Source of the DNA: Flavobacteriaceae bacterium
Lineage (GTDB): Bacteria; Bacteroidota; Bacteroidia; Flavobacteriales; Flavobacteriaceae
Direction: 5' to 3'
Length of the DNA: 64,000 nt
Assembly: GCA_947464335.1 (NCBI GenBank)
Contig: CANHWG010000004.1
Location: 1 to 64,000 of the forward strand
Shown here: positions 43,842 through 56,114 of the stretch, in pieces
Layout: the number at the start of each line of letters is the position of its first letter
Numbering within the stretch: the stretch's first letter is position 1
Position numbers and translations under genes: made by a program
The notes under the pieces: generated by a model
Told to the model about the DNA's origin: nothing
The model's input: the letters and a program-made list of their open reading frames with translations, nothing else
The model's database searches: none

Positions 43842-46800
43842 TTATTTCTTAATAAATTTATAAGTATTTCTTTCATTACCGCTTACTATTTGAATAAAGT
43901 ACATCCCTTGAGGATACGATGCAACATCTACTGATTCATTGTTTATAAGTGTAGTTGTTTTTAAAACTTTTCCTGTAATGTCTGTAATAGTAATATTGAA
44001 ATCTTCATAAAGTGGATGCGAAACAAATAACTCACCATTGGTTGGATTAGGATAAATACGATAATTATTGCTTGTAATATTATCTTCCAAACCAAGTGTA
44101 GTAGTTGAATACTTAGCCCAAAATCTATCGTTGTTTAATGGTGAAGCAGAAGTTATGTTTTGTACTTCTGCAGAAAAATCAAAATCGACTGTTCCTCTAA
44201 AACTACCTGCTAATAGTAAATTTTGGTTATTATCTAAGGATGTATTGTATATTTCCCCAATATAGTCACCCTCTAATTTATTAGCAGCTATTAATTCTCC
44301 CGAAGACATATTATATTTTGCTAAGAAAAAGCTAGTATTAAAATTACCGTCAGCATTTACAGTAGAACTAATTACTGTATCATTAGAAGAAGGATCAAAA
44401 TCGTAGTTACCTAATATTGATGACGCTACAACTAATTCGTTATTTTTAATATAAGTACTGCTTAACCATTCATTCCCTTGAATAGAAGTAAAGGGTAAAA
44501 AACTATTTACATCTATAGCTCTAACCTGTTTAGCCCAAACAAAACTACCATTTTCTGTATACTTTAAAATGGCTAGATTAAGGGTTGCATCATCTAATGG
44601 TAAGGCCGTTAAATTAAATACTGTTGTTGGTGAGGGATCAAAATCTACAGTATAATAAAAAACAGCTAATAAGTAAATATCCCCATTATCATCAATGGCA
44701 AAGGAGGAGCCTTTATTGATTACGCCATTTGGATCATTATCAAATTTAAAAGCCATTTGATAGTTCCCATCAAGGTCGTATTTGGCAAAAAAGGTTTCAT
44801 TTGAAAATGTAATAATTGTTGTTAAAATATTTGTTTCAGAAGGTGAAGGATTAAAATCTGCTCCCCCCAACATTCGGCCTGTCATATAAAGACTATTGTT
44901 TTTGATGTCAAATTGAGTTACAGAAACAAATTCGCTACCTGTATCTGATTGTGCCAATATACTTTTAGCCCAAATAAAATCTCCTTGTGAATTGAATTTA
45001 ATTATGTAAGTACTAGAAGATATATTGTTTTGTGGCGGTAAATTAAATACATTGGTAGAAGGATCCACATCAATAGGATTTATCCCTCTAAAAGTACCTG
45101 TGAAATAAAAATTTCCAGAATTATCAAAAACAAGTTTTCTCCTAGCTCCAATGTTTCCTGTGATTTGTTTTGACCAAACATAATTACCATTACTATCATA
45201 TTTTGCAATAAATAAATCTGAGACTGTAGCACTATTAGAAGCCATATTTGAAGTATTTGCTGATGGATCAAAATCAATTGTACCAATAAAATTGCCAACT
45301 ATAAAGGTATCACCATTTGTGTCAGTGTTCATAACCGACACTCCTATACTTGATCCTGTTGTTGAAACAATTGCTTTTCCCAAAATAAAATTACCATTTG
45401 ATGTATATTTAGAAATAAAAATTCCTGGTGATGATAAACTAGAAACATTGAATGGACTTGGTGAGGGGTCTAAGTCAGTAGTTGCTGAGAGTGAACCTAC
45501 TCTGTAAATATTTCCAGAACCATCAGTTGATATAAAATTTGTCACATTATTTGCTGGCTTATTTCCACCGATAGCTTTGACATAAACAAATGCTCCTGTA
45601 GTATCATATCTTCCAATAAAACCATTTGTTAAAAGGGAATACTGAGTTAAAACCCCAGTAGAAGGGTCAAAATCAGCAGAACCACTAAAATTACCCGTTA
45701 AATATATTCCTTCAAAATCAATATTTATAATATTAGTAATTGTGGGTTGTATATTCTTAGCATATACAAAATTTCCATTAGTGTCATAGGATGCAAAATA
45801 ATTGGTCCCGGTTGTTGTGTCAAGATTATATACTGCTGTTCCTGGATCAAAATCAGAAGTAGTTGATGAGGTAAAAGTTCCAAAAACAGTAACATTAGTA
45901 GTTGCACTATCGTAAATAACACCTTTATTTGTTGTAGATGCTAATTTTTTTGCCCAAATATAATTTCCATTGGTATCGTATTTTGCTACAAAAGAACCTG
46001 ATGCTGTTAAACTTGCTGATGCTGTTGATGGGTCAAAATCAGAAGTTACGTTAAAAACACCTGCAACTATTAAATTATTTGATGCATCACAAACAATTAT
46101 TGGGTTTGAACTTTGTGATCCACTCATTTTAGCTTGTATATCTTTCGCCCAAATTAATACTCCAGAAGTTGAATACTTTGCTATAAAAGTATTATTAGCA
46201 GTTGAGGAGTTTATTAATATATTTGAGGCAGAAGATGGATCAAAATCAACAGTGTTTGTATAATTTCCAGTAATTATTAATTCGCCAGAACTACTAACCG
46301 TAGATGAAAAACAAGTATCATTGTTAACTCCACCTATAGTATAGGCCCATTGTGGAATAAATAAAGTACTATATTTTGCAATAAATACATCAGTGCCTCC
46401 ATTTGAAGATAAATTTAAAGCATTAGTTGATGGATCAAAATCAACAGCTCCACTAAAATTACCTGAAACTAAAAGTTGATTATTACTGAAACTAATACTA
46501 GTGAATTTTAATTCGGTTTCACCGTCTATACTCTTGCTTATTATATGATTTCCATTTAAGTCATATTTTGCTATAAATGCTGCTTCGAAACTTCCGTTTG
46601 CCGATGTTAGGTTTGAATTACTTGTAGAAGGGTCAAAATCTATAGTATTTGTATATTTTCCAACAATATAAATGAAATTACCCCCTATGACAACTGCACT
46701 ACAATTTACATAGCCAGTTCCACCTATACCTTTTACCCATAAAAAGTCTCCATTAGAGTTATATTTTGCAATAAACATATCACCATCTTGACTATTTATA

Positions 46801-47015
46801 GCAGTTAGGTTTGTTTCTGTTGGAGATGGATTAAAATCAGCAATAACTCCAAAATTACCAATTAAATACACATTGCCGTTACTGTCTTTAACGCTTTTAG
46901 TAACTAATAAGGAACCTCCATATCCTACATTACTTTCTTTATTTGCAAAAGTTAAAGTTGGGTTTTGAGCAAATAAGTTAGAAGTAAATAATAGTACAAG
47001 TAATAGTTTTTTCAT
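43842..47015 (-). CDS. Secreted FDPS-repeat (beta-propeller-like) protein with T9SS sorting domain
   Basis: 1057 residues with a signal peptide (MKKLLLVLLFTSNLFAQ). The body consists of about 14 repeats of 55-75 residues. Each has a core like ...GNFxxTVDFDPSxxxxNLxS...FIAKYxxxGxFxWAK. The repeated acidic D(F/L/V)DPS motif and the WAK strand suggest propeller blades of the SBBP type. The C-terminus (NYRIYPNPTNGELFVS to YKFIKK) is a T9SS type A domain. Probably a cell-surface protein; ligand unknown. Confidence 0.88.
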   Translation of the reverse strand: MKKLLLVLLFTSNLFAQNPTLTFANKESNVGYGGSLLVTKSVKDSNGNVYLIGNFGVIADFNPSPTETNLTAINSQDGDMFIAKYNSNGDFLWVKGIGGTGYVNCSAVVIGGNFIYIVGKYTNTIDFDPSTSNSNLTSANGSFEAAFIAKYDLNGNHIISKSIDGETELKFTSISFSNNQLLVSGNFSGAVDFDPSTNALNLSSNGGTDVFIAKYSTLFIPQWAYTIGGVNNDTCFSSTVSSSGELIITGNYTNTVDFDPSSASNILINSSTANNTFIAKYSTSGVLIWAKDIQAKMSGSQSSNPIIVCDASNNLIVAGVFNVTSDFDPSTASASLTASGSFVAKYDTNGNYIWAKKLASTTNKGVIYDSATTNVTVFGTFTSSTTSDFDPGTAVYNLDTTTGTNYFASYDTNGNFVYAKNIQPTITNIINIDFEGIYLTGNFSGSADFDPSTGVLTQYSLLTNGFIGRYDTTGAFVYVKAIGGNKPANNVTNFISTDGSGNIYRVGSLSATTDLDPSPSPFNVSSLSSPGIFISKYTSNGNFILGKAIVSTTGSSIGVSVMNTDTNGDTFIVGNFIGTIDFDPSANTSNMASNSATVSDLFIAKYDSNGNYVWSKQITGNIGARRKLVFDNSGNFYFTGTFRGINPIDVDPSTNVFNLPPQNNISSSTYIIKFNSQGDFIWAKSILAQSDTGSEFVSVTQFDIKNNSLYMTGRMLGGADFNPSPSETNILTTIITFSNETFFAKYDLDGNYQMAFKFDNDPNGVINKGSSFAIDDNGDIYLLAVFYYTVDFDPSPTTVFNLTALPLDDATLNLAILKYTENGSFVWAKQVRAIDVNSFLPFTSIQGNEWLSSTYIKNNELVVASSILGNYDFDPSSNDTVISSTVNADGNFNTSFFLAKYNMSSGELIAANKLEGDYIGEIYNTSLDNNQNLLLAGSFRGTVDFDFSAEVQNITSASPLNNDRFWAKYSTTTLGLEDNITSNNYRIYPNPTNGELFVSHPLYEDFNITITDITGKVLKTTTLINNESVDVASYPQGMYFIQIVSGNERNTYKFIKK

Positions 47016-50847: not shown

Positions 50848-51299
50848 AGTTTAAGTTTTTTAGGTTGTCAAAAATATACTATTGTATACTATTTTTTTAC
50901 TTTATTGAATTTTATATTTCGTGAAAACCTGTTGGTCAAAATTATTTGAATAAAAATAAACTAGATAATTCTTGGAAAAAATTATTGTAGAATATAGAAA
51001 TTAATAGTTCTTTATATTGTGCTCTAGAATTTAAATCAGGAATTGGCAGAAAGAAAAAAATGTATAAAACAGAAGTAGTTACCTAGAGTTTGACGGCTAA
51101 ACTTATATCTATTGAAAGTGAAAATTCTTTTTTCAAGCATTTAATTCTATTTGAAATCAAAATTTAACTGAGCGAATTCTTTATCATCAAAATATTAAAA
51201 CTCAAAGACAAATTCAAAAATAGAACTTTTTAATTTTCGCTAAAATATTTTTAAATTATTAGTTATGTTTGCATAAAATTTTACTTTTTATTGATAATA
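50848..51299. other. 452-base divergent intergenic region
   Basis: Very AT-rich. It holds the -7 elements TATTTTTG (50869-50876, reverse, for the lactonase lipoprotein) and TATGTTTG (51264-51271, forward, for the cyclase lipoprotein). No RNA gene or open frame with features seen. Confidence 0.5.
51264..51271 (+). promoter_or_regulatory. -7 element of the cyclase-EutBC-deformylase locus
   Basis: TATGTTTG matches TAnnTTTG and lies 28 bases before the ATG at 51300. A near match (TACTTTTA, 52149-52156) precedes the eutBC-like gene. Confidence 0.4.
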
Positions 51300-52097
51300 A
51301 TGAAATATTTATTCCTTTTTTCAACTCTTTTATTTATTTCTTGCCAAAAAGATTCAAATAAAAACCTCGATTTGAACGATGTAAATTGGATTGATTTGAC
51401 CCACAGTTTTGATAGTACAACTTTATATTGGCCTAATAACAAAACTAAATTCATTCACCATACTGATGCAGAAGGAGTCACTCCGCTGGGATATTATTAT
51501 TCTTCCTATTCTATTTGTGCACCAGAACATGGGGGAACCCATTTGGATGCACCAATTCATTTTGCTAAAAACAAATACACTGTTGATCAATTGCCTTTAA
51601 AAAGTTTAACTGGGAATGCCGTGGTTATAGATGTTTCGAAAAATGCATTAGCTAACCGAGATTATCAAATAGCAATTGAGGACATTAAAACGTGGGAAAT
51701 GAAAAACGGAAAAATTGAAAAGAATACCATTATTTTATTTAAAACCGGATATGGAAAATATTATCCCAACCGAGGCGATTATTTCGGCACTCCGAAAACC
51801 GGAATTGAAGCTATTCCCGAATTACATTTTCCCGGAATAGACCCCAAAACTACTTCCTGGCTGATTAAAGAAAGAGCGGTTAAAGCACTAGGTTTAGATA
51901 CCCCTAGTTTAGATTACGGTCAATCTAAAGATTTTAAAACCCATCAAATTTTAATGGGAAGCAATAAACCTGGTTTTGAAAATCTGGCAAATCTAGACAA
52001 ACTACCAGCCACTAAAATCTTTGTGGTAGCACTACCTATGAAAATTGGCGGTGGAAGTGGGGCTCCATTGAGAATAATTGCTGGAATTTCTAACTAA
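51300..52097 (+). CDS. Cyclase/kynurenine-formamidase family lipoprotein
   Basis: 265 residues from the ATG at 51300 (MKYLFLFSTLLFISCQKDSN; lipobox LFISC). A TTG three codons upstream is not needed. The metal-binding signature HGGTHLDAPIHF (about 80-91; HxGTHxDxPxHF) is intact, as are WIDLTHSFD near the N-terminus and the later GLDTPSLDYG...HQILM. The family hydrolyses amides such as N-formylkynurenine or cyclic compounds with Zn or Mn. Lipidation puts this copy outside the cytoplasm. The EutBC-like gene follows after 63 bases. Confidence 0.85.
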   Translation: MKYLFLFSTLLFISCQKDSNKNLDLNDVNWIDLTHSFDSTTLYWPNNKTKFIHHTDAEGVTPLGYYYSSYSICAPEHGGTHLDAPIHFAKNKYTVDQLPLKSLTGNAVVIDVSKNALANRDYQIAIEDIKTWEMKNGKIEKNTIILFKTGYGKYYPNRGDYFGTPKTGIEAIPELHFPGIDPKTTSWLIKERAVKALGLDTPSLDYGQSKDFKTHQILMGSNKPGFENLANLDKLPATKIFVVALPMKIGGGSGAPLRIIAGISN

Positions 52098-52160: not shown

Positions 52161-54539
52161 ATGAGTAAAATCAGAAATGACTTCAAAAATCATAGGGTAA
52201 AGCAACCAACCCAAGATAACTCAACTACTATTGTTACCATTCCTCGGCGCGATTTCCTAACGCAACTAGCACTATTAAGCGCTTCAATGCTCCTTTTAAG
52301 GTCTAATTGTTTCGCGTCACAAATCGACCCTTCAAATGCTCTGATTGATATTAAAAATCCACTGAATAATGAAGATATTTTTGCCTACATCCGCAGAGAA
52401 ACAGGAGGATTCGATATTAATTTATATAAAAAATTGGTGGGTGCTGCCAATGAATTCAAAGAAGGCGATGAAATACTAGGCATTGCTGCTTCTAGTGAAT
52501 CCGCACGAAAAACAGCTCGAATAGTAATAGCCAATACCATGCTGTCAGCCGTTATAGAGCAACCTCTTTTTAAAGATGAGTTATTCGATTTTATTCAAAA
52601 CGCTACTGCATTGGATGAACAGATTATTAGTATGACATTCTTGGAGCTAAAGAATTTTTTATTGGAGTCGGATGAGGAAAACATTAAGCGGATCATGCCT
52701 TCGCTTACAAGTGATTGTATTGCTTTTGTAGTAAAGCTCATGTCTAACGATGAACTAATTAGTGTAAGTGCCAAGGTATTTAATCAACTGCCGAATAGTA
52801 CTATTGGCGGGAAAGGTTATTTAAGTGCTAGGGTGCAACCTAATTCACCAACTGACAATGTAGAAGATATAATTTGGCAGGTATTTGATGCTTGGTCCTA
52901 TGGCGTGGGAGATTTAGTCCTCGGAACCAACCCAGTTTCTAGCGATCCTGTTATGGTGGCCCGAATAGAAGCGGCACTCCATGATATATTGGTTGCCTTT
53001 GAGCTACAAGATACGATGCCCAATTGTGTGCTCTCACACATTGATATTCAATCGCGTGTCGAAGAAAGTCAGCCAGGCACCACTGGTGTTTGGTTTCAAA
53101 GTATAGCAAGTTCGGTTGCAGCCAACCAAACGTTCGATGTTACGATTGAAAAAATGAAAGCTTATGCTGATGCCAGACGAGATAACCTATTTGGTCTTTA
53201 TGCCGAAACAGGTCAAGGAGCCGATGCTACTAACGGTCATAGTGAGGGCTTCGATATGGTGGTTCATGAGTCAAGAAAATATGGATTCTTAAGAGCTCTA
53301 AAACAGCGAATCAATTTCAATAAAAAAAACAAAACTGAACCTTGGGTATTTCTTAATGATGTTGCCGGTTTTATAGGTCCTGAAGTATTTCGAACAAAAG
53401 AACAATTGGTCCGTTGTTGCTTAGAAGACCTTGTAATGGGCAAGCTTCATGGACTTACGATTGGTCTTGACATCTGCACTACACTGCACATGGATGTTAC
53501 ACTTGATGACCTAGATTGGTGCATTGATCAGATTATGCCTGCAAATCCTGCCTATTTAATGGCATTACCTACGAAAAACGACCCAATGCTTAGTTATCTC
53601 ACCACTTCTTTTGCCGATCATGTTAGAATACGGGAACAATTTGGCTATAAAGTAAATGATAAGATGTGGGAATTCTTCAAGCGTATCGGCGTTATTGGTA
53701 TCGACAATAAACCAACCACTCTTTTTGGCCAACCCAATGAAGTATATTTACGCTATTGTAAAGCAAAAGGCGACCTACGCAGTGATTATGAGATATTGTT
53801 GGAAGGTAAGTCAGCCATAGAACGTGTTCGGAAACGAGGTGTGCCTATTGCTGAAGGATACGGAGAAAAAACATGGATGCTTCAACCATCACTAGACCAT
53901 GAAATTCGGGAATTATACAAAGATGCCAAGTATTGTTTGTGGACTGAGTGGGAATCTTCCTATTTGCGTTCTATCAAAAACGCTATAGTAGTTTCATCTA
54001 TGTCGGTTAACAGAATTGATTATGTTTATCACCCAAGTAGCGGAGAACACCTATCTCCAGAATCTTTAGTGAAAGTTCAAAGTCTCAGTAAAAAACTCGA
54101 TAAGAACACTCCAGATGTTCAGATTATTATATCTGATGGGTTGAATTCTAGATCATTGATGGATGAAGGGCATCTTAACCAATTTCTTCCTTCTCTTTAT
54201 AAACAATTAGCTGAGAAAAGTTTAACCTTTTCAGATGCTCCAATAATTATTCGCAATGGACGTGTGCGCGCTGGCTATGAGATTGGGGAACACCTTTTTG
54301 GAAAAGACATAATACAAAAACATTGTATCGTTCATATTATAGGCGAGCGGCCTGGGACTATACACCGCAATTTTTCAGTTTATATTACAGTTGCTTCAGC
54401 TTCTACATGGAACATTCAAGGCAAAGTCGATCACGATATTACACGAGTCATTTCAGGTATCAGTGATACGGCCTATCTTCCAAAAGATGCTGTTATAGAA
54501 GTAAGCTCTATTATAAAGGAACTCATGAGTGAAAAATAA
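52161..54539 (+). CDS. Fused ethanolamine ammonia-lyase (EutB-EutC) with Tat-like signal
   Basis: 792 residues. An N-terminal twin-arginine-like signal (TIPRRDFLTQLALLSASML; Arg29-Arg30, possible cleavage after about 52) precedes an EutB-like domain (about 65-530) and a C-terminal EutC-like domain (about 640-790). Residues equivalent to the E. coli EutB ethanolamine contacts are present: Arg224 and Gln226 (SARVQPN), Asn257 (GTNPVS), Glu349 (AETGQG) and Asp437 (IGLDIC). The EutC part has SDGL (658-661), GRV (700-702), IGE (708-710) and GERPG (728-732) but lacks about 100 N-terminal residues. The reaction would be ethanolamine to acetaldehyde plus ammonia with adenosylcobalamin. Export of a B12 enzyme is unexpected; no eutA or microcompartment genes are near. 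Confidence 0.88.
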   Translation: MSKIRNDFKNHRVKQPTQDNSTTIVTIPRRDFLTQLALLSASMLLLRSNCFASQIDPSNALIDIKNPLNNEDIFAYIRRETGGFDINLYKKLVGAANEFKEGDEILGIAASSESARKTARIVIANTMLSAVIEQPLFKDELFDFIQNATALDEQIISMTFLELKNFLLESDEENIKRIMPSLTSDCIAFVVKLMSNDELISVSAKVFNQLPNSTIGGKGYLSARVQPNSPTDNVEDIIWQVFDAWSYGVGDLVLGTNPVSSDPVMVARIEAALHDILVAFELQDTMPNCVLSHIDIQSRVEESQPGTTGVWFQSIASSVAANQTFDVTIEKMKAYADARRDNLFGLYAETGQGADATNGHSEGFDMVVHESRKYGFLRALKQRINFNKKNKTEPWVFLNDVAGFIGPEVFRTKEQLVRCCLEDLVMGKLHGLTIGLDICTTLHMDVTLDDLDWCIDQIMPANPAYLMALPTKNDPMLSYLTTSFADHVRIREQFGYKVNDKMWEFFKRIGVIGIDNKPTTLFGQPNEVYLRYCKAKGDLRSDYEILLEGKSAIERVRKRGVPIAEGYGEKTWMLQPSLDHEIRELYKDAKYCLWTEWESSYLRSIKNAIVVSSMSVNRIDYVYHPSSGEHLSPESLVKVQSLSKKLDKNTPDVQIIISDGLNSRSLMDEGHLNQFLPSLYKQLAEKSLTFSDAPIIIRNGRVRAGYEIGEHLFGKDIIQKHCIVHIIGERPGTIHRNFSVYITVASASTWNIQGKVDHDITRVISGISDTAYLPKDAVIEVSSIIKELMSEK

Positions 54540-54684: not shown

Positions 54685-55446
54685 ATGAATAAAAGGAAAA
54701 AATATTATATAATTATTTTAACTTTAGTAACTGCCATGAGTATAAAAAGCTGCAAAACAATTGACAAATCTCTTACATTAGATATCCCAAAAGTTGAATT
54801 GGAAATACTTCAACAAATTCCAGCAAATCAAAAAGGAAGAGAGAAAAGCGCTCTGTATTTACCTCCTCGAAGAATAAGTGAGAATGAATTTAATACTCCT
54901 GTTTTAGATGAACTAATTGACAGTATGTATGATATGATGGTAAAAAAATCTGGTGTTGGTATTGCAGCCAATCAAATAGGCAAACGATTACAACTATTTA
55001 TAATAGAAGCAAAATCGGACAATCCACGTTACAAGATTTTAGGTCCCGTACAAAAACAACTATTTATCAATCCCATTATTACTAAAACATCTTCAACGAG
55101 GAAGAATTTTTGGCACGGGTGTTTAAGTGCTGATGGTGAAAAAAGAGGTAATGTAGCAACTTATGAATGGATTGAATATCAATGTCAAAACGAAAAAGGA
55201 AATATCATAACGGGAAGATTGGAGGGATTTGCCGCAGTAATTTTTCAACACGAATTTAGGCATTTAATGAATGGAACCTACCTTGATGTGGCCAAACATT
55301 TTTTATCAAAAACAGAATTAGATCTCGAGATTGAAACCAAAAAAACACCTTTTTTTGAAACAGCGTCAGATACTTTACCGCTACTAATAAATGACTATAC
55401 CATTGGAGAAACACTTGAAAAGTACCACTCAAAAAAACAACAATAA
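54685..55446 (+). CDS. Peptide-deformylase-like lipoprotein
   Basis: 253 residues. The hydrophobic N-terminus ends in a lipobox-like IKSC (Cys23). All three deformylase motifs are present: GVGIAANQ (90-97; GxGxAAxQ), HGCLS (144-148; Cys146 as metal ligand, first Glu of EGCLS replaced by His) and HEFRH (189-193; His189 and His193 ligands, catalytic Glu190; usual Asp replaced by Arg). The C-terminus is longer than in Def. Cytoplasmic Def removes formyl from nascent chains; an exported copy must act on something else. Next gene 11 bases downstream. Confidence 0.82.
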   Translation: MNKRKKYYIIILTLVTAMSIKSCKTIDKSLTLDIPKVELEILQQIPANQKGREKSALYLPPRRISENEFNTPVLDELIDSMYDMMVKKSGVGIAANQIGKRLQLFIIEAKSDNPRYKILGPVQKQLFINPIITKTSSTRKNFWHGCLSADGEKRGNVATYEWIEYQCQNEKGNIITGRLEGFAAVIFQHEFRHLMNGTYLDVAKHFLSKTELDLEIETKKTPFFETASDTLPLLINDYTIGETLEKYHSKKQQ

Positions 55447-55457
55447 CTAACAACAGC

Positions 55458-56114
55458 ATGATGAATAAGTTTTTATTTTTACCCCTTTTCTTCTTTTCAC
55501 TAAATATATTTTCTCAAAACTTTGATTATGACAAAGTTTCGATTGAATCTAGTTTGGGATATAGTATTCCAATGATTAACAAATCTTCAGATGGAAGTGG
55601 AGAATTTGCTTCCTTTTCTCATATTAATTTGGGTGTTCGCTATATGTTCAACCATAAGTGGGGTATAAAAAGTGATTTTAGTTATGATACTTTTAAGGAT
55701 GGAGATAAAGGCAGTAATCATTATAGGTTAAATTTAGAAGCATATTACAATGTGGGAGATATTTTTGATTTAAATAACATTTCTAATCAGAGTATTGCAT
55801 TATATTCTCATTTGGGTGGAGGTTTTACGTATAATAATACCCATATTAATGAAGTTCAAATCGGTTACATTCCTCGTTGGGAACGACAAATTAATGTGAC
55901 TTTTGGATTGTCTCCGAGATTCAGGATAAACGATGATATTTCTCTTTTAGCTGATTGGACGAATATAATTGCTACTAGACAACAATTTTATTATAGTGGA
56001 GAGCCCGTATCTTCATTAACCAATGGTGAAATTGGATTTCATATGACTTTTAGCTTAGGAATTTCTTTTTCAATAGGAGGTTTTAGTGATCATGCAGATT
56101 TTCATGAACATTAA
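55458..56114 (+). CDS. Outer-membrane beta-barrel protein
   Basis: 218 residues with a signal peptide (MMNKFLFLPLFFFSLNIFSQ). Alternating beta-strand pattern: VSIESSLGYSIPM, FASFSHINLGVRYMFNHKWGIKSDFSYD, LYSHLGGGFTYNN, NVTFGLSPRFRIND, and a closing strand GFHMTFSLGISFSIGGF followed by a short His-rich tail (SDHADFHEH). It resembles the small 8-stranded OmpA/PorT-type barrels. Only 11 bases after the deformylase-like gene, so the two are probably co-transcribed. Ligand unknown. Confidence 0.8.
   Translation: MMNKFLFLPLFFFSLNIFSQNFDYDKVSIESSLGYSIPMINKSSDGSGEFASFSHINLGVRYMFNHKWGIKSDFSYDTFKDGDKGSNHYRLNLEAYYNVGDIFDLNNISNQSIALYSHLGGGFTYNNTHINEVQIGYIPRWERQINVTFGLSPRFRINDDISLLADWTNIIATRQQFYYSGEPVSSLTNGEIGFHMTFSLGISFSIGGFSDHADFHEH

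Follow-up and report, generated by a model that had tools for sequence, protein, structure and literature searches.

Results

Locus and domain organisation

The window, by which we mean the whole 64,000-nucleotide stretch of Flavobacteriaceae DNA analysed here, carries on its forward strand an uninterrupted ORF of 792 amino acids that runs from an ATG to a stop codon with 0 internal stops (Table 1). Pfam places a EutB domain (PF06751, 444.4 bits against a cut-off of 25) in the N-terminal part of its product and a EutC domain (PF05985, 103.7 bits against a cut-off of 25.8) in the C-terminal part, the latter covering positions 36-227 of the 235 in the profile. Both scores lie above the gathering thresholds, in line with the preliminary description, which had read the two parts of ethanolamine ammonia-lyase as joined in one 792-residue chain. 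The N-terminal half also passes the NCBIfam EutB model (565.6 against 554 bits); the EutC half does not reach the stricter NCBIfam EutC equivalog (72.1 against 230 bits). All five distinct sequences matched among solved structures are ethanolamine ammonia-lyase heavy or light chains. Instead of two separate cytoplasmic subunits, the gene specifies a single chain with an export-type N-terminus, and it is the sole EutB match of its own genome (2.44 Mb in 92 contigs, 87% complete).

Table 1. Coordinates of the fused gene, its parts and its nearest neighbours
Feature	Position	Strand	Basis and remarks
Putative cyclase (PF04199), lipoprotein-type start FISC	51291-52097	+	Pfam; 63 bases upstream of the fused gene
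Single-chain EutB-EutC protein, 792 aa	52161-54539	+	ORF and Pfam
Putative N-terminal signal, residues 1-52	52161-52316	+	Sequence and family comparison; putative signal peptidase I cleavage by eye
Twin-arginine motif RRDFL, residues 29-33	52245-52259	+	Sequence; RR in 44/74 family members
EutB domain PF06751, residues 89-518, with R224, Q226, N257, E349 and D437	52425-53714	+	Pfam, alignment and structure match
Linker and most of the EutC 76-105 counterpart, residues 519-585	53715-53915	+	Alignment and model; helix continues to about 593
EutC domain PF05985, residues 586-791	53916-54533	+	Pfam, alignment and structure match
Peptide-deformylase-like protein, lipoprotein-type start IKSC; GVGIAANQIG, GCLS, HEFRH	54685-55446	+	145 bases downstream of the fused gene
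Outer-membrane beta-barrel-like protein	55458-56114	+	11 bases after the deformylase-like gene; cassette membership uncertain

The genes on both sides of the fused gene encode proteins with lipoprotein-type starts, which we count towards an export reading. The upstream product is distantly kynurenine-formamidase-like and carries HGGTHLDAPIHF. The downstream product has counterparts of the three deformylase motifs, with Asn in motif 1 at a place where Pro is usual; its lipoprotein-type start suggests a location outside the cytoplasm, which would be unusual for a deformylase. Cyclase and deformylase-like genes also flank the fused gene at one related locus (L046), and the cyclase alone accompanies it at another (L022).

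No conserved operon emerged from BLAST clustering of the neighbours at 68 loci and in the window (the shortest 3-4 kb), which gave lineage-local groups only. Pfam annotation of 79 neighbours, chosen from 124 listed (most of the 45 omitted being short or doubtful frames, or second-nearest ones), yielded 119 families without clear recurrence: the commonest, a secretion tail, occurred in three, and the rest of the 25 commonest occurred twice or once each. With 17 E. coli Eut proteins as queries, tblastn against 77 loci revealed no recurrent eut neighbours besides EutB and EutC themselves. The other matches were EutG-like alcohol dehydrogenases at three Echinicola loci (L029-L031) and a EutD-like match at L063, possible users of acetaldehyde. 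Single neighbours that would fit as pathway partners, namely an iron alcohol dehydrogenase (L029), a zinc alcohol dehydrogenase (L063), an amino-acid permease (L112) and amidohydrolases (L115 and L070), were set aside because none recurs across lineages. At the Rfam gathering score, no cobalamin riboswitch was found in the window or in eight related loci. Elsewhere in the window, on the minus strand, lie a Flavo-1 RNA (RF01705; 2785-2850, 49.3 bits) and a gene at 43842-47015 for a 1057-aa protein with many DFDPS-type repeats and, by eye, a putative type IX secretion tail.

N-terminal signal

The preliminary description had seen a typical Tat signal in this protein. Two arginines stand at residues 29-30, within IPRRDFLTQLALLSASMLLLRSNCFA, and RRDFL is followed by the uncharged hydrophobic stretch LALLSASMLLL. 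The N-terminus reads TIPRRDFLTQLALLSASMLLLRSNCFA up to the putative cleavage site, with the putative cleavage point, read by eye, before the following SQ; signal peptidase I would probably cut there, after CFA (Ala52).

Family members at 74 loci (L001, L005-L077), some of them near copies of each other, were scored with a Tat-like pattern of our own, consisting of two basic residues, any residue, a hydrophobic residue and then an uncharged 12-residue hydrophobic segment. It was passed by 63 of the 74. Among the controls, none of 474 internal segments taken from these proteins and none of 14 N-termini of ordinary EutB passed, as against 73 of 3150 shuffled N-termini. Seven members failed: four carry one Arg before the hydrophobic stretch (L009, L012, L014, L035), one is without such a stretch (L027), and two are cut by a contig end (L062, L064). 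The remaining four (L013, L017, L028, L040) fell outside pattern scoring, two of them having, by eye, RKKFL (L013) and RRNFL (L028). By motif alone, the 74 divide into 44 with RR, 21 with RK only (including L013 and L027), four with one Arg, two cut and three unscored. Lipobox-like sites occur in 18/74 members, in several lineages. TatC was found in all 12 genomes searched that carry the fused gene; in the window's own genome (G000) it lies on contig C68 (210.9 bits).

Neither of the outcomes that the preliminary description had named as telling against a Tat signal was seen, since the N-terminal segment is kept in homologues and our own pattern is positive in most of them. According to a Tat review, even lysine in the motif is poorly tolerated (PMC7317946), so that dependence on Tat may be looser in the RK members, or they may take another route. 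The Tat route is less sure for the 21 RK-only and the four single-Arg members, while an export-type N-terminus would remain in the RK members even if their use of Tat is looser. For the window protein itself, these features make export likely. One member of the exported clade, L027, begins with KRKNWMRYLG and has no recognisable signal, its catalytic residues being intact; this suggests a possible return to the cytoplasm.

Family distribution and phylogeny

Homologues at the 74 loci occur in Bacteroidota, Planctomycetota, Myxococcota and Pseudomonadota. Scanning public genomes yielded 61 loci, assigned to these four phyla by record title, and Sinorhizobium and Ensifer copies were added from plasmid records. 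Near-complete fused frames, defined as at least 650 aa and closed by a stop, were present at 68 of the 74; two short frames (L017, L040) and four open-ended ones (L028, L069, L073, L074) were dropped, and three of the 68 sit at a contig start (L051, L062, L064). Intact homologues occur in many assemblies, including isolate genomes of Echinicola, Algoriphagus and Sinorhizobium.

Prevalence was counted in genome samples at three levels, the genus, the family and the phylum to which the window belongs, with the window genome among those with the long form each time. EutB was found in 6/199 genomes of the genus (three long, three ordinary), in 14/299 of the family (11 in frames of 772-793 aa, three ordinary at 439-463 aa) and in 13/395 of the phylum (two long, 11 ordinary). 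Each listed genome had one EutB match, and long and ordinary forms were never found together.

In a tree of 56 EutB regions built by a quick method, 33 exported-type rows, chosen from the 68, form one side of a branch with an SH-aLRT of 100. The 22 ordinary rows form their own group (support 96), with which the window protein does not cluster. The exported clade is deep, with branch lengths of 2.9 and 1.7 and 28-31% identity to solved EutB chains. Judged from sequence, the fused, signal-bearing design is a widespread family and not a single oddity.

Conservation and selection

Arg224, Gln226, Asn257, Glu349 and Asp437 of the window protein align with E. coli EutB Arg160, Gln162, Asn193, Glu287 and Asp362, exactly as the preliminary description had paired them, and these five are invariant in all 68 near-complete members. 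Two papers assign EutB Glu287 contact with the AdoCbl ribose and a part in radical-pair formation (PMC4413051) as well as facilitation of migration (PMC8473560). Counterparts of Ser247, Val326 and Phe329 are likewise invariant (68/68), that of Leu402 is kept in 68/68 and that of Met392 in 65/68. Changes were found at positions that adjoin the conserved ones in sequence: of the 68 members, 56 have Thr and 11 have Asn in place of Val192, 66 have Ser for Asp197, all have Asp for Thr325, and 52 have Ser and 16 Gly for Asn403. Cys419, Cys420 and Cys454 are new invariant residues, with Ala, Gly or Leu in the four ordinary proteins compared.

In the EutC half, the GRV and GERPG motifs are kept in 68/68 members, His725, His735 and His758 are newly invariant, and EutC Asp211 is replaced by Tyr706; among 13 ordinary rows, Asp stands at this place in 12 and a gap in one. 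The suggestion that much of the EutC N-terminus is missing held in part: residues 1 to about 70 of E. coli EutC have no clear counterpart, but EutC 76-105 matches residues 559-592. A EutC chain shortened to 263 residues was used in one crystal series, and loss of that N-terminal part is tolerated. Along the whole chain, dN/dS ranged from 0.057 to 0.214 in 11/11 pairs, indicating purifying selection, with the highest value (L015/L016) resting on very few synonymous changes and one pair (L007/L065) near saturation.

Predicted structure

AlphaFold2, run with 36 sequences, returned a model with pLDDT 83.5 and pTM 0.82, in which residues 1-59 score below 50. The segments 357-362, 405-407 and 469-482, close in sequence to conserved active-site residues, are also of low confidence. 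The best structure match was 3abo_A (Z 40.5, rmsd 2.2, 429 aligned, 29% identity), and the best match of the EutC part was the EutC chain 5ysr_D (Z 24.4, rmsd 4.1, 233 aligned). As predicted without cofactor and with each domain matched by itself, the protein combines a EutB-type barrel with a EutC domain, and the third outcome that the preliminary description had named as refuting, a structure lacking the B12/substrate pocket, is thereby disfavoured. Together with the invariant residues and the dN/dS values, this fold match favours the earlier reading of an enzyme that would be active rather than decayed.

Cofactor supply and reactivation

All 14 genomes searched, among them 11 that carry the fused gene, have a cobalamin adenosyltransferase. 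The EutA profile PF06277 passed its cut-off in each of the 14, but the matches were no more than partial, at 32-39 bits in frames of 439-462 aa. Two such frames proved to be FtsA (373-375 bits), and the other twelve are presumably FtsA as well. The result was the same in the 11 fused-gene genomes and in three relatives with ordinary EutB, so the missing EutA says little about export. Lack of EutA, which the preliminary description had tied to a periplasmic location, is thus shared with relatives that have the ordinary enzyme. Of the marks of a eut operon, neither recurrent linked eut genes nor, beyond these partial matches, a EutA reactivase was found in the loci and genomes searched.

Discussion

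We consider it fairly probable that the window protein is a Tat-exported, single-chain ethanolamine ammonia-lyase loaded with AdoCbl. The interpretation as a Tat-exported, cofactor-loaded lyase is supported at the level of sequence, from which we infer actual export, cleavage, AdoCbl loading, activity, and the substrate and its source. Several observations weigh against it: the RK-only and single-Arg members and L027; the lack of recurrent eut neighbours and of a cobalamin riboswitch at the loci searched; the lack of any EutA beyond FtsA-type partial matches; and a EutC half that departs from ordinary EutC at conserved places such as Asp211 and scores far below the NCBIfam EutC cut-off. Ordinary EutB and EutC of E. 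coli hold AdoCbl between them, and the assembled enzyme is a large oligomer. Due to this placement of the cofactor, two loose subunits would be difficult to export, whereas EutB and EutC in one chain could enclose AdoCbl while folding in the cytoplasm and then pass through Tat together, already loaded. Since the ordinary enzyme is a large oligomer, export would be expected to precede assembly. Such a route would suit Tat, which according to the review mainly transports proteins that have taken up a cofactor in the cytoplasm and are exported in the folded state (PMC7317946). The signal would then be cleaved in the window protein, and lipidated in some relatives. Periplasmic ethanolamine, which may derive from phosphatidylethanolamine head groups, would be split into acetaldehyde and ammonia, and both could diffuse into the cell. 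The ordinary enzyme inactivates itself, and EutA handles this inactivation, according to PMC5821096. Away from the adenosyltransferase and with no reactivase found, the exported enzyme would either not inactivate itself or be used, each molecule, until dead.

The same chemistry could be performed outside the cytoplasm on another substrate, for instance another amino alcohol or an extracellular ethanolamine derivative. The depth of the clade (28-31% identity, long branches), the changes beside conserved sites at the Val192, Asp197, Thr325 and Asn403 counterparts, and the position of the gene outside eut operons all point this way; the five invariant residues and the retained Met392 and Leu402 counterparts argue for ethanolamine, and we regard a different substrate as possible though unlikely. 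It is distinctly improbable that the enzyme stays in the cytoplasm or is tethered to the membrane, its N-terminal segment being no export signal or an uncleaved, inward-facing anchor. The RK-only and single-Arg variants and L027 show that the family does not retain a strict RR throughout, but the signal architecture persists across four phyla, lipobox-like sites occur in several lineages, and several genes begin just a few codons upstream of the motif. Bacteroidota use surface B12-binding lipoproteins. An exported cobalamin-binding or scavenging protein that keeps the EutB-EutC fold without a working lyase would accord with these, with the lipobox-like sites and with the lack of a reactivase in the genomes searched, but we give it very little credence in view of purifying selection along the whole chain and invariant catalytic residues, among them the Glu287 counterpart with the roles on the adenosyl group and in migration described above. 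Chance or artefact is ruled out by the intact homologues in many assemblies, isolates included, and by purifying selection.

For the exported ethanolamine ammonia-lyase that we favour, the closest known system is EutBC of E. coli (EC 4.3.1.7; 3abo), with which it shares the EutB barrel, the EutC domain, the catalytic residues and the EutC GRV and GERPG motifs. In contrast to EutBC, it is a single chain with an export signal, 29% identical to 3abo_A, lacks a clear counterpart of the first 70 or so EutC residues, has Tyr in place of EutC Asp211 and is encoded outside a eut operon. AdoCbl-dependent diol and glycerol dehydratases have a related barrel fold (Z 21.1-21.7, rmsd 3.2-3.5, 367-377 aligned), but are cytoplasmic and belong to a different sequence family. 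A second single-chain EutB-EutC protein, WP_165050702.1 (731 aa), is encoded on a plasmid of Methylocystis sp. MJC1 (L095, 5980-8175). It differs in having no signal by eye, Ala at the Asp362 counterpart and a EutC part closer to ordinary EutC (168.7 bits), and in the tree it sits apart from the exported clade at the end of a long branch, which makes its placement unsure. This signal-less chain suggests that fusion alone does not bring export. Respiratory reductive dehalogenases are not known to use an AdoCbl radical and have a fold unrelated to EutB-EutC. They resemble the present case as corrinoid enzymes that Tat delivers across the cytoplasmic membrane to its outer face, but are, according to PMC10624902, iron-sulphur corrinoid reductases that likely act via Co(I).

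In the literature searched, which included the accessible parts of PMC5821096 and PMC10440813 and covered few subscription journals, we found no report of an exported or single-chain ethanolamine ammonia-lyase. Annotation can hide the fused family, as the record of the Sinorhizobium meliloti copy, which lies on pSymA, names it only as subunit EutB. Whether the family is ancient, with members in four or more phyla, and performs AdoCbl radical chemistry outside the cytoplasm, fusion being what allows Tat to export an enzyme that keeps its cofactor enclosed, we judge to be evenly balanced. If true, the known range of AdoCbl radical enzymes would come to include the periplasm or cell surface, fusion would be shown as a way to fit a two-subunit cofactor enzyme for Tat, and it could be asked whether an AdoCbl lyase is able to function beyond the reach of EutA and adenosyltransferase. 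For environmental bacteria of several phyla, it would mean an outside route to ammonia from ethanolamine.
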